Part shown: positions 13,805 through 16,401 of the stretch, one piece after another
Layout: every line of letters begins with the position of its first letter
Numbering within the stretch: position 1 is the first letter of the stretch
Origin: Spirosoma endbachense
Lineage (GTDB): Bacteria; Bacteroidota; Bacteroidia; Cytophagales; Spirosomataceae
DNA length: 64,000 nt
NCBI RefSeq assembly: GCF_010233585.1
Contig: NZ_CP045997.1
Location: 186,001 to 250,000 of the forward strand
Direction: 5' to 3'
Program-made: the position numbers and the translations under genes
The notes under the pieces: generated by a model
What the model was told of the DNA's origin: nothing
Seen by the model: the letters and a program-made list of their open reading frames with translations, nothing else
Database searches by the model: none

Positions 13805-14175
13805 TAGGTTACTGATGGGAGATTAAATCGCTAAAGTTGATGAGTTGACCCCCGCTTTGGCACTGTTTAACAGTTAATGTAGTGAGTGAGGTCAGGTTTA
13901 TCGGTGTGATGGTGTGGTATCAGTTTCTTGGCGTGGTGTCAGTTTCTTAAAACTGACACAGCAAACCGTAGCATCGGCGAATACTCCTTTACGAGTCAGT
14001 TTTTAGAAACTGACTCCACCACTCCAACACCATTTTTTACAGGGCTATGCGAAAGTAAAAACACGACTCAAGTAGAATTTTTAGAAGTACTGAAAAAAAT
14101 TCTACTGCGCAAAAAGACTGCGCAGGTGCCTGAAACCTTTGTATCGTCAAGTTTATCAAACAAACGCCGACGATC
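13805..14175. repeat. 371-bp gap before the Ro60 gene with four short hairpins
   Basis: No gene is seen. Two related hairpins, 13936-13945 with 13950-13959 and 13993-14002 with 14007-14016, share the arm GTCAGTTT and look like copies of an intergenic repeat; an unpaired half copy lies just before the first. Closer to the gene are 14071-14082 with 14095-14106 (12 bp, A/T-rich) and, overlapping by two bases, 14105-14111 with 14119-14125 (CTGCGCA). The last pair sits in what should be the leader or promoter region of the Ro60 gene, 50-100 bases from its start. Confidence 0.6.
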
Positions 14176-15705
14176 ATGAAATTCAACTTTTTCAACCGCA
14201 ATGCAGCACAGACACTCAACCATGAAGGGGCCAAAGCGTATGCTATGACACCGGAGGTGGAGTTGTATTCGGCCGTAGTGACGACAATGCTGAACGATTC
14301 ATACTATGAAAAATCGGACCAGCGTCTCGCCAGGATTCAGGAATTGATCGGAAAGGTTGACCCAGTGTTTGTGGCTAAACTCGCTGTTTATGTACGGGAG
14401 CAGATGAACCTGCGTTCGGCCCCGGTCGTGCTGTTGGGTGAATTGGCGAAAGTTCACAACGGCGATGCTCTGGTCGGGCAGGCGGTTGGTCGGGCTGTGC
14501 AACGCCCCGACGAAATAACGGAATTGCTGGCCTATTATCAGGTAACCAACCAGCGTGCAGGTGCTAAGAAATTGAACCGGCTCTCCAAACAGATGCAGAA
14601 AGGACTGGCTTCGGCATTCAACAAGTTTGATGAATACCAGTTTGCCAAATACAATAAAGATACGGCTGTTAGACTTCGTGATGCCTTGTTTCTTGTTCAC
14701 CCAAAAGCAAAGAATGAAATTCAGCAAGCCGTGTTCAATAAAATTGTTGCCGGTTCACTGAACACGCCCTATACCTGGGAAACGGAGTTGAGTGCATTAG
14801 GGCAGGTGGTATTTGCTTCTGAAGCCGAAAAAAACGCAGCCGTACGAGTCAAATGGGAAGAACTGATCGATAGTGGTCGGCTGGGTTATATGGCTACACT
14901 GCGAAACCTACGGAACATGCTCGAAGCAGGAATCAGCGAAAGGCATGTCGAAAAGGTATGTGCCTTGCTGGCTGACGAAAAAGCCGTCCGGAACGCTAAG
15001 CAATTGCCCTTTCGTTTTCTTTCGGCTTACCGTGAACTAAAAGCACTGCAACTGGGCTCTGTACCAATGGTCCTCGAAGCACTGGAAGCCGCAGTTTATG
15101 CCAGTGTGGCTAACCTGCGTGGTTTCGGGGCGCAAACACGTGTTGTTGTCGCCTGCGATGTGTCGGGCTCCATGCAGAAAGCTGTTTCGCCGAAGAGCAA
15201 AGTTTTGTTGTATGACATTGGGTTGCTGTTGGGAATGCTTCTACAGGCTAAATGCAAAAACGTGCTGAGCGGGATGTTTGGTGACCGTTGGAAAACGGTC
15301 GCCCTGCCAGCAAAGCATATCCTGGCTAACGTCGATGAGTTTTATCAGCGGGAGGGTGAGGTTGGCTATGCAACCAATGGGTATCTGGTACTCGATGATC
15401 TGATCAAGCGGAAATACAAAGCCGACAAGATCATGCTTTTTACGGATACGCAGTTGTGGGATAGCACGACCAACAATCAGGCTGTGAACAACACGATGGC
15501 GGCAAAATGGGCACAGTATAAAAATCTGTTTCCCGATGCCCGATTATATTTGTTCGATCTGGCGGGATATGGTCAGGTGCCTTTACGGGTAGAATCATAC
15601 GATGTCTATCTGATTGCTGGCTGGTCAGATAAAGTATTCGATGTGTTAAAAGCACTCGAAGAGGGCCAAACAACGCTAAGCGCAATTGACGAAATTGTGC
15701 TATGA
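14176..15705 (+). CDS. rsr: Ro60 ortholog (Rsr): TROVE and vWA domain RNA-binding protein
   Basis: A 509-residue protein. Residues about 15-320 match the TROVE domain, the helical-repeat ring that binds misfolded RNA in its hole and Y RNA on its outer face (for instance PEVELYSAVVTTMLNDSYYE, FVAKLAVYVREQMNLRSAPVVLLGELA, LRDALFLVHPKAKNE). Residues about 320-505 form a von Willebrand A domain with an intact metal-ion site: D328-V-S330-G-S332 (ACDVSGSM) and D424 in LFTDTQLWDS. Known bacterial Ro60 proteins act in rRNA maturation and RNA decay with Y RNA. The four Y-like RNAs starting 74 bases past the stop make the pairing strong here. No RtcB or RtcA gene is nearby. Confidence 0.95.
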   Translation: MKFNFFNRNAAQTLNHEGAKAYAMTPEVELYSAVVTTMLNDSYYEKSDQRLARIQELIGKVDPVFVAKLAVYVREQMNLRSAPVVLLGELAKVHNGDALVGQAVGRAVQRPDEITELLAYYQVTNQRAGAKKLNRLSKQMQKGLASAFNKFDEYQFAKYNKDTAVRLRDALFLVHPKAKNEIQQAVFNKIVAGSLNTPYTWETELSALGQVVFASEAEKNAAVRVKWEELIDSGRLGYMATLRNLRNMLEAGISERHVEKVCALLADEKAVRNAKQLPFRFLSAYRELKALQLGSVPMVLEALEAAVYASVANLRGFGAQTRVVVACDVSGSMQKAVSPKSKVLLYDIGLLLGMLLQAKCKNVLSGMFGDRWKTVALPAKHILANVDEFYQREGEVGYATNGYLVLDDLIKRKYKADKIMLFTDTQLWDSTTNNQAVNNTMAAKWAQYKNLFPDARLYLFDLAGYGQVPLRVESYDVYLIAGWSDKVFDVLKALEEGQTTLSAIDEIVL

Positions 15706-15714
15706 TGCCAAACC

Positions 15715-15778
15715 AAACCTATAAGGTCTTTGAGACCTTATAGGTTTATGGAGAAGTTTAGGAAGACCTTATAGGTTT
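15715..15778. repeat. 15-bp perfect hairpin plus a third copy of its arm
   Basis: AAACCTATAAGGTCT (15715-15729) pairs exactly with 15733-15747 across a TTG loop, 10 bases after the Ro60 stop. The arm AGACCTTATAGGTTT occurs again as a direct repeat at 15764-15778, ending one base before the first Y RNA stem. The hairpin can terminate or stabilise the Ro60 message. The third copy could compete for pairing, or could simply be a duplicated repeat. Confidence 0.7.
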
Positions 15779-15910
15779 ACAGGATGTCGTAGAGGTGAGT
15801 TACTTCGTAGCACCCAGGGGAGGAATCATGTGGCTTACACCGTGAAGCGAGATGGTCCGGTTCGACTCCGGCTTGCCATGCCCCATGCTCACTTCGTTTG
15901 TTACTCCTGT
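15779..15910 (+). ncRNA. Predicted Y RNA 1 (T-arm-like module only)
   Basis: The ends pair as ACAGGA (15779-15784) with TCCTGT (15905-15910). The internal loop has the array-wide strands TGTCGTAG (15785-15792) and CGTTTGTTAC (15895-15904). An upper stem AGGTGAG (15793-15799) pairs with CTCACTT (15888-15894). This bulged end-stem is the Ro60-binding architecture of Y RNAs, and the 5' strand resembles vertebrate Y RNA (GTGAGTTA). The insert has GGGG 15817-15820 with CCCC 15881-15884, ATGG 15852-15855 with CCAT 15876-15879, and a T-arm-like hairpin CCGG-TTCGACT-CCGG at 15857-15871. A GCTT/AAGC hairpin at about 15833-15848 takes the place of a D-arm. No permuted acceptor stem is seen. Confidence 0.75.
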
Positions 15911-15919
15911 TAGTTTGAA

Positions 15920-16051
15920 CAATGCAGGTGCCGTAAAATAGGGTTACTTCGTTTCGGTCGATAGGGTCGCCGGTTCGAATCCGGCCAGCGGAGAAATCTG
16001 TTGTAGCTCAGGGGTAGAGCATAAACCCTATTTGTCTGTTGCCCTATATTG
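15920..16051 (+). ncRNA. Predicted Y RNA 2 with circularly permuted tRNA-like module
   Basis: The end-stem pairs 15920-15928 with 16043-16051 (8 of 9). The conserved strands are TGCCGTA (15929-15935) and TGTCTGTTGC (16033-16042). The upper stem AAATAGGGTT (15936-15945) pairs with AACCCTATTT (16024-16033). The insert reads, in order: T-arm GCCGG-TTCGAAT-CCGGC (15969-15985), 3' acceptor strand CAGCGGA (15986-15992), GAAA tetraloop (15993-15996), 5' acceptor strand TCTGTTG (15997-16003, seven pairs, two of them G-U), the U8-A9 pair TA (16004-16005), and D-arm GCTC-AGGGGTA-GAGC (16006-16020). The Y stem stands where a tRNA has its anticodon arm. It resembles the YrlA class, whose effector module mimics tRNA. 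Confidence 0.88.
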
Positions 16052-16056
16052 CTTTT

Positions 16057-16188
16057 AGCAAGTGCCGTAGAGAAGAGTTCCATCGACTTTTAATCGGGCA
16101 GTCGCCGGTTCGAGTCCGGCCATTGGATAACGTTCCAATGTAGCTCAGCTGGGTAGAGCGCCATACTCTTTTCGCCTGTTGCCTTGCT
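16057..16188 (+). ncRNA. Predicted Y RNA 3 with circularly permuted tRNA-like module
   Basis: The ends pair as AGCAAG (16057-16062) with CTTGCT (16183-16188). The conserved strands are TGCCGTAG (16063-16070) and CGCCTGTTGC (16173-16182). The upper stem is AGAAGAGT (16071-16078) with ACTCTTTT (16165-16172). The tRNA-like module has T-arm GCCGG-TTCGAGT-CCGGC (16104-16120), acceptor strands CATTGGA (16121-16127) and TCCAATG (16134-16140) forming seven Watson-Crick pairs around a TAACGT loop, then TA (U8-A9), and D-arm GCTC-AGCTGGGTA-GAGC (16143-16159). The acceptor sequence differs from RNA 2 while pairing is kept, which supports the fold. A T5 run at 16190-16194 follows, so transcription or processing may end there. 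Confidence 0.9.
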
Positions 16189-16202
16189 GTTTTTAATACG
16201 AT

Positions 16203-16279
16203 CAAACCGGTGCCGTAGTAAAGACTTACTTCGACCATCACGTTGCTAAACGTAGTCTTTACGCTTATTGCCCGGTTTG
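16203..16279 (+). ncRNA. Predicted short Y RNA 4 without tRNA-like module
   Basis: CAAACCGG (16203-16210) pairs exactly with CCGGTTTG (16272-16279), and weaker pairs extend this by two. The conserved strands are TGCCGTA (16211-16217) and GCTTATTGC (16263-16271). The upper stem 16218-16229 pairs with 16252-16262 with one bulged T. The rest is a loop that can form ACGTT-GCTA-AACGT (16240-16253). It has the Ro60-binding end of the array but no T- or D-arm, so it is a minimal Y RNA of about 77 bases, in the size range of simple bacterial and metazoan Y RNAs. A T4 run lies at 16284-16287. Confidence 0.82.
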
Positions 16280-16401
16280 GTTGTTTTATCACCAATCCAC
16301 TCAGTGCATCCTACCGTTCACGAATTTCCTGCTGAAGCGGATTTGTCAGTGAATTAACTTTAGAGAATCGACATGTTCCGTCACGTCAATGCTCTACCAG
16401 G

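Follow-up and report, generated by a model that had tools for sequence, protein, structure and literature searches.

A predicted array of Rsr-bound Y RNAs carrying permuted tRNA-like and other modules in Spirosoma endbachense

What might a bacterial Ro60 orthologue do with four RNA units encoded one behind the other, directly downstream of its own gene? This question is raised by a locus of the bacteroidete Spirosoma endbachense, which lies in the window, i.e. the whole stretch of 64,000 nucleotides analyzed here (contig NZ_CP045997.1, positions 186,001 to 250,000). In it the rsr gene, encoding the Ro60 orthologue Rsr, is trailed by four units, U1 to U4, which a preliminary description had taken for Y RNAs. 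Given the structure of the units and their linkage to rsr, Rsr-bound Y RNAs are the best reading, with expression and binding being predictions. Quite probably, the four units share a clamp bound by the Rsr ring, and their differing modules route Rsr to tRNA-handling partners. The gene and the units are as follows:

14176-15705, plus strand: rsr, encoding a TROVE/vWA protein of 509 aa, the Ro60 orthologue (open reading frame, Pfam, profile search)
15779-15910, plus strand: U1, Y-RNA-like unit with a type I module (descriptor scan, 31-sequence alignment)
15920-16051, plus strand: U2, Y-RNA-like unit with a permuted tRNA-like module (YrlA match, model R2)
16057-16188, plus strand: U3, Y-RNA-like unit with a permuted tRNA-like module (YrlA match, model R2)
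16201-16281, plus strand: U4, minimal unit made of the clamp and a short hairpin (16240-16253), with a T-rich stretch on the 3' side (folding z-score, model R2)

The claim that rsr is a complete TROVE/vWA gene holds: its 509-aa product matches TROVE (PF05731; E=8e-33, 114.7 bits against a cut-off of 23) and possesses a vWA-type DxSxS motif, D328-V-S-G-S332, which is invariant in 8/8 sequences and which we take to be the vWA metal site, with Pfam listing no separate vWA domain for this protein. A profile of eight relatives' Rsr matches the structures of Ro60 (1yvp, 4e-10) and Deinococcus Rsr (2nvo, 1.7e-6), and the gene is the sole TROVE gene in the genome (one contig of 10,326,072 bases). The closest solved sequences, PDB 9l5y and 9kop ('TROVE domain-containing protein'), are nearer to it than Ro60 or Deinococcus Rsr.

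The clamp common to U1-U4 consists of a 7-nt strand, TGYCGTA, opposite a 9-nt strand, GYYTRTTRC, placed between a closing stem and a second stem. U1, which starts 74 nt past the rsr stop codon, illustrates the layout:

15779-15784 with 15905-15910: closing stem of U1
15785-15791 and 15896-15904: internal-loop strands of U1
15792-15799 with 15888-15895: second stem of U1

A descriptor of this clamp, run over both strands of the window, scored U1-U4 at 25-28 and the next best place at 19, with closing stems of 7-10 pairs and second stems of 9-10 pairs. The extents it returned (15775-15914, 15920-16051, 16056-16189 and 16201-16281) agree with the coordinates first given for the four units, the closing stem of U4 extending to 16201-16281. 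We further built two covariance models, R1 from 30 U1-type (type I) modules and R2 from 34 permuted-type units, the window's own units included, and scored the best first-look candidates of the 10.3-Mb genome (34 of 5012 for R1, 150 of 1640 for R2). Among the candidates scored, at E<=0.1, R1 matched U1 alone (68.1 bits), and R2 matched U3, U2 and U4 (116, 111 and 54 bits) and nothing else. Of the Rfam families, none attained its gathering score in the window, YrlA (RF02553) scoring 41.9 bits for U3 and 37.1 bits for U2 against a cut-off of 69. U1 and U4 had no YrlA match at E<=10 in a permissive Rfam scan, YrlA at gathering score was absent from 12 relatives' loci, and E. coli YrlA, tried as a comparator, gave no match. 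Single-sequence folding gives weaker signals than the model searches, moderate for U2 and U3 (z-scores of -2.16 and -2.48) and strong for U4 (-5.51). No tRNA in native order was called by ARAGORN in the window, the best Rfam tRNA score being 20.2 against a cut-off of 29; shuffled sequences had more promoter-like sites than the real one and, on average, about as many terminator-like sites, and no site of either kind falls inside the array.

The relatives' sample comprised 80 named rsr loci, which rank as the best 80 of the 419 relatives confirmed among the matches listed, all Bacteroidota by name except one metagenome-assembled genome labelled Limnohabitans; L004, L005, L006 and L009, which duplicate named loci, were left out of the covariation test and of later counts. 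Within 3 kb downstream of rsr in the 80 loci, 260 units lie on its strand, whereas the opposite strand has 2 and the upstream side 1. When stem ends were located by the loop strands alone, 69 of the 101 loci yielded a total of 135 motif pairs, in which closing stems pair at 5.16 of 6 positions versus 3.49 with swapped partners (maximum 3.79 in 1000 swaps) and second stems at 5.44 of 7 versus 3.71 (maximum 3.95). The covariation of closing stems in relatives, on which the first proposal had been made to depend, is present, with 82 fully paired closing stems having 45 different 5' sequences. Within the internal loop the pair Y3-R8 also covaries (C-G 63, T-A 35, T-G 22, C-A 15; p=7e-7), as against a control loop pair with no covariation (p=0.6). 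Three alignments, A2 and A3 with 31 and 30 of 53 type I units and A4 with 34 of 105 type II units (types defined below), were assembled from members hand-picked from the named loci and the window. The RNAalifold structures have 98.2% (31 type I units) and 96.7% (34 type II units) of cells paired, with pairs changed on both sides in 22/29 and 25/31 cases, respectively; 0/500 shuffles reached the pairing or covariation values, and slides of 1-3 columns gave 38-52% paired, a control that favors these structures because they came from the same alignments. The clamp architecture, the position behind rsr on its strand and the covariation together sustain the identification of the units as Y RNAs.

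What differs between the units is the module that the clamp carries. In U2 and U3 this module, here called type II, is a circular permutation of a tRNA-like fold, with D, T and acceptor arms all present and arranged in the order T-arm, 7-bp acceptor hairpin, U8A9 and D-arm:

15949-15961: predicted anticodon-arm stem-loop of U2
15969-15985: T-arm of U2
15986-16003: acceptor hairpin of U2
16004-16020: U8A9 and D-arm of U2
about 16083-16097: predicted anticodon arm of U3
16104-16120: T-arm of U3
16121-16140: acceptor hairpin of U3
16141-16159: D-arm of U3

All these elements can be read directly from the sequence, and the helices are backed by covariation in relatives; acceptor pairs 1-7 are formed in 31-38 of 38 type II units and pair 8 in 21/38. 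For a rotation test we used 70 of the 105 type II units, namely those with a regular D-arm and an insert of at least 17 nt. Re-ordered at the predicted cut, 52 of the 70 are called as tRNAs by ARAGORN, including U2 (Arg tcg) and U3 (Lys ttt), whereas none is called when those pieces keep their native order (0/70), when any of six other cuts is used (0) or after shuffling (0/350).

The anticodon arm of the type II module is predicted, and statistics over the relatives' units support it. Its spacing (a V loop of 5 nt, a loop of 7 nt and a stem of 5 bp) is the best of 42 registers, the stem pairs at 3.08 of 5 positions versus 2.23 expected (sd 0.10, maximum 2.59 in 2000 permutations), and position 33 is T in 67/96 type II units. 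The reference set held 137 real tRNAs, drawn from 30 loci of this genome and from nine other loci and having 66 distinct anticodon loops, with which we compared 89 of the 96 distinct type II units. Identical loops were found in 23/89, from 11 isoacceptors, with 0 at seven other spacings and a column-shuffle mean of 6.4 (maximum 15 in 2000 shuffles). The loop of U3, CTTTTAA, is the same as that of tRNA-Lys, on a stem with 4/5 pairs.

U1 has a different module, here called type I, in which GGGGAGGAAT...CCCC is combined with an arm in two parts and a hairpin resembling a T-arm:

15817-15884, plus strand: type I module of U1, GGGG...CCCC (R1, 68.1 bits)
15825-15829 and 15832-15836: two-part arm
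15857-15871: T-arm-like hairpin

The type I consensus has the T-arm-like hairpin, no D-arm motif and a fold other than the T-arm, acceptor hairpin and D-arm of YrlA. Neither in the window nor in 12 relatives' loci did any Rfam family match it at gathering score, and for U1 the permissive scan gave a 9-bit tmRNA match over the T-loop and otherwise matches at chance level. Across 150 genomes of Spirosoma's family, 25 of which match the Rsr protein (one of them as a fragment), there are 15 strong type I hits (50-78 bits), all in rsr-positive genomes and within 0.8 kb of rsr; thus 15/25 rsr-positive genomes have a strong hit and 10/25 none, and the 125 genomes without a detected rsr have 0 strong hits and 1 weak one (29 bits). 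Among 395 genomes of the phylum, 6 type I hits all fall in the 27 rsr-positive genomes, within 1.8 kb of rsr, versus 0/368 in the others. In these multi-genome searches (more than 40 genomes) stricter filters miss weak matches. The confinement of the hits to the vicinity of rsr ties the module to the Rsr system. We tentatively propose a pseudoknot in it, in which the strand behind TTACTT pairs with the strand between the T-arm and CCCC, crossing GGGG/CCCC: in 38 distinct units, out of 48 fitting the pattern among the 53, this crossing helix scores 4.67 versus 4.13 (sd 0.12, maximum 4.55 of 1000). U1 itself has a shifted 3-bp version, and GGGG/CCCC is nearly invariant, with one compensatory case (L008).

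The window hence combines one type I unit (U1), two type II units (U2 and U3) and a bare clamp (U4, the minimal type), and the presence of three module types makes a division of labor among the units, raised in the preliminary description, more plausible. Sorting by simple patterns assigned 105 of the 324 units of the 101 loci to type II and 53 to type I; of the remainder, 49 are minimal, 75 show just a T-loop, 5 show just a D-arm motif and 37 fit none of these classes. Type II units occur in 78 of the 101 loci and type I in 53. That four units are an exceptional number is not supported for relatives of this gene: when each locus is counted to its end (at most 5 kb), 77/80 named loci have at least one unit, 60/80 at least three and 38/80 at least four, which makes four units a common array size in this sample, the largest array being one of eight units in Hymenobacter. 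As for the putative processing of a polycistronic RNA suggested in the preliminary description, short gaps between units are typical, with a median of 11 nt (n=214) and 123/214 of at most 20 nt. In the Spirosoma group, read by eye, closing stems recur by position (ACAGGA, GCAGG, AGCAAG, AACCGG) while the modules vary: slot 2 has type II in the window, but in S. arboris, S. validum and L007 it combines a hairpin with a T-arm, and slot 4 is minimal in the window and type II in F. limi and L010. A proposal that closing stems within an array are orthogonal to one another found no support, cross-pairing being 3.88/6 within versus 3.68/6 between arrays (70 arrays). In the Chryseobacterium loci (L064-L108) the Y units are scattered over 1-4 kb behind rsr, in L100 with small ORFs between them, and several neighbor families without assigned function recur. 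An Rfam Flavo-1 RNA lies directly behind rsr on the opposite strand at L084:6565-6655, L098:6552-6629 and L106:6568-6657 (minus).

The neighborhood of rsr was counted in 99 loci, with L027 (G126) and L028 (G092) also left out; in these two, rsr is present as its last part only or in two frames, and Y-like units still lie behind it. Neighbor clustering found a divergent WYL gene in 47/99 loci and RtcB on the rsr strand in 34/99, mostly downstream (median +889). Pfam names among the neighbors include WYL/WCX, RtcB, RlaP, T4 Rnl1-like and Rnl2-like ligases, Pnkp and Hen1, and 38/80 named loci have at least one repair-type neighbor. In Cesiribacter and Pontibacter the RNA-repair genes for Pnkp and Hen1 lie near rsr (L054, L062, L068, L071 and L081, five loci each). 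A candidate regulatory site precedes rsr in the window:

14105-14125, no strand assigned: inverted repeat CTGCGCA-N7-TGCGCAG, predicted WYL-type operator (recurrence before rsr)

This repeat or near variants of it occur in 25/99 loci at no more than 250 bp upstream of rsr and in 15/99 at no more than 250 bp past its stop codon, while the rest of the 973,610 bases searched has 21 such sites; a site of this type stands between rsr and the first unit in 25 loci. A one-mismatch copy lies between the WYL and rtcB genes of this genome. The operator copies at rsr and at the distant WYL/rtcB pair suggest one regulon split between two places, with binding to the operator being predicted. Between rsr and U1 there is also an inverted repeat with three arms, AAACCTATAAGGTC (15715-15778), of which no further copy was found within the window at one mismatch.

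In some relatives the units lie among real tRNA genes. In five family genomes the 19 kb surrounding rsr contain 8 to 16 ARAGORN tRNAs, among which Y units are interspersed, the units alternating with real tRNA genes at gaps of 1-9 nt in G027 and L112, and 77/79 Rfam matches in eight loci are tRNA. tRNA calls were made in 15/80 named loci, five of which have 3-12, though single calls within type II units may be false. Canonical tRNA runs with rsr in or near them, nearly always on the same strand, were seen in L112-L116, L063, L083, L084, L090 and L098.

Ro60 with the Y RNAs of animals and Rsr with the Y RNA of Deinococcus are systems in which paired RNA ends surround an internal loop. The window Rsr belongs to the same protein family by its profile matches, and the likeness of the window's units to the animal and Deinococcus RNAs is one of general layout; animal Y RNAs are not known to have a tRNA-like module. 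The nearer parallel is YrlA and the rsr-yrlBA-rtcBA operon of Salmonella, with which U2 and U3 share the location beside rsr, the paired ends and the permuted T-arm, acceptor hairpin and D-arm, and the relatives the nearby RtcB. Unlike in that operon, the relatives' arrays mix several modules and a WYL gene replaces RtcR; and unlike YrlA, whose Rfam consensus has four unpaired nucleotides at this place, U2 and U3 have the predicted anticodon arm and V loop. The permuted arm order of YrlA is itself already known, as passages of PMC11472068 relate, and a review names, in the part consulted, the D, T and acceptor arms only (PMC8394870). The cluster of tRNAs of the Gordonia phage Boopy likewise has a Ro-like gene, tRNAs, tmRNA and a permuted Y-RNA-like unit (L159:1440-1595), the latter with an anticodon-like arm at tRNA spacing (loop ATTGGGA, 4/5 pairs by eye), which indicates that the arm is not confined to Bacteroidota; unlike the window's units, this one is phage-borne and overlapped by a tRNA-Leu annotation. 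A literature search at the level of titles, abstracts and passages, with Chen et al. 2014 outside its scope, turned up no account of Bacteroidota Y RNA arrays, Y RNA anticodon arms or the type I module. The region before the T-arm, i.e. the predicted anticodon arm, seems new relative to the descriptions of YrlA, and we regard its novelty as provisional. The survey by Chen et al. 2014, the principal one for Y RNAs of bacteria, reportedly covers more than 250 species.

Under the mechanism we favor, a WYL-type regulator would induce rsr, the array and rtcB jointly on RNA damage, and the Rsr (Ro60) ring is predicted to grip the covarying two-stem clamp. The modules atop the clamp would then likely route Rsr to different tRNA-handling partners: the tRNA-like ones may tether it to PNPase and to tRNA-modifying or -repairing enzymes, upon which structured or broken tRNA could be degraded or re-ligated. 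U2 and U3 would likely act as handles or decoys when cell tRNAs are damaged. Genes for both PNPase and RtcB are present in the S. endbachense genome, and YrlA is reported, in passages of PMC8394870 and PMC9879122, to bind PNPase and tRNA-modifying enzymes. The latter paper gives no known RNA substrate for the Rsr/YrlA/PNPase complex, and substrates of the Salmonella operon are described in the abstract of PMC7790460 as unknown before that study's own work.

Several observations weigh against this picture. On the side of the array, U1 alone folds no better than shuffles (z=-0.22). On the side of the neighborhood, no repair gene was found beside the window's rsr, the WYL gene (C1:77252-78253, 62% identical to the query) and its divergent neighbor rtcB lying about 120 kb away (C1:77252-79989). 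On the side of the tRNA mimicry, whole units as encoded are called as tRNAs by ARAGORN in 5/105 cases; the loop of U2, TTTCGGT, has 3/5 stem pairs and no exact counterpart among the real tRNAs; anticodon stems have fewer than 4 of 5 pairs in 54/96 type II units; and the permutation statistics are optimistic because related sequences are not independent. Sequences with the arm shuffled are still called as tRNAs in 183/350 cases, so that ARAGORN supports the permutation and not the anticodon arm, and was rejected as proof of the latter. Nor is it supported that every unit recently captured a complete tRNA, for once the loop is masked, the closest tRNA belongs to the same isoacceptor in only 1/20, the tRNAs being taken from this genome and nine other loci instead of each host.

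The strongest competitor is that these are ordinary YrlA-type Y RNAs, whose module tethers Rsr to PNPase and attracts tRNA-modifying enzymes, with the anticodon-like hairpin being passive or a relic; we hold this to be a substantial possibility that falls short of probable. The below-cut-off YrlA matches of U2 and U3 fit it, as do the imperfect arms (54/96 with fewer than 4 pairs) and the PNPase binding and dihydrouridine/pseudouridine modification reported for YrlA in passages of PMC8394870. However, a relic arm should have decayed, whereas the arm keeps the exact tRNA spacing, T33 is retained, and the 23/89 exact loops exceed all 2000 column shuffles.

A more doubtful proposal is that the permuted tRNAs show their anticodon loops to anticodon nucleases, as decoys that spare the tRNAs or as sensors that signal an attack, with repair enzymes nearby. 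It would account for the exact loops from 11 isoacceptors and for the repair and WYL neighbors in relatives, and it has a precedent in passages of PMC7790460, in which a competitive-inhibitor role is proposed for YrlA and the Salmonella operon responds to tRNA cleavage; but the same source reports Salmonella YrlA as uncut by an SOS-dependent nuclease, and an exact loop is found in only about a quarter of the type II units. Extended to the phylum, it would make of the Bacteroidota arrays a bank of permuted tRNA mimics, joined by a second tRNA-like module, that acts as anticodon-nuclease decoy or sensor and is wired through WYL to repair by RtcB, RlaP, Rnl or Pnkp-Hen1, the genuine anticodon loops on display being those of Lys, Asn, Asp, Glu, Met, Thr, His, Gln, Pro and Leu; this joint version, loops included, we deem unlikely.

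Far less credible is that U2 and U3 are permuted tRNA genes, their clamp being removed, the ends ligated and the acceptor hairpin opened to give working tRNAs. All four tRNA arms are indeed predicted, RNA ligases are close by in many relatives, and genes with re-ordered tRNA segments exist in algae and an archaeon, as passages of PMC3978253 describe. Unlike those genes, which mature to tRNAs, U2 and U3 have their ends held in a clamp; moreover, this clamp is the best-conserved part while acceptor loops vary, and normal tRNA genes already serve the same anticodons (46 tRNA matches in this genome), which makes this a highly improbable explanation. Least probable of all is a decayed, functionless tRNA cluster beside rsr, for which the real tRNA genes among the units of some relatives might speak, but which is refuted in the main by the strong covariation and is at odds with the strict linkage of type I to rsr across genomes.

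If Rsr-bound Y RNAs with differing modules are the right reading, the array touches two questions, namely what bacterial Y RNAs do and why Ro60 is found in RNA-repair operons. Because the array sets a bare clamp next to modules of two designs, the partners of each become separable, and type I modules would form a clean RNA family marking rsr loci. The predicted anticodon loop on the tRNA mimic renders a decoy role directly testable, by asking if an anticodon nuclease sees the Y RNA, and such a loop would make the competitive-inhibitor idea for YrlA far more direct.

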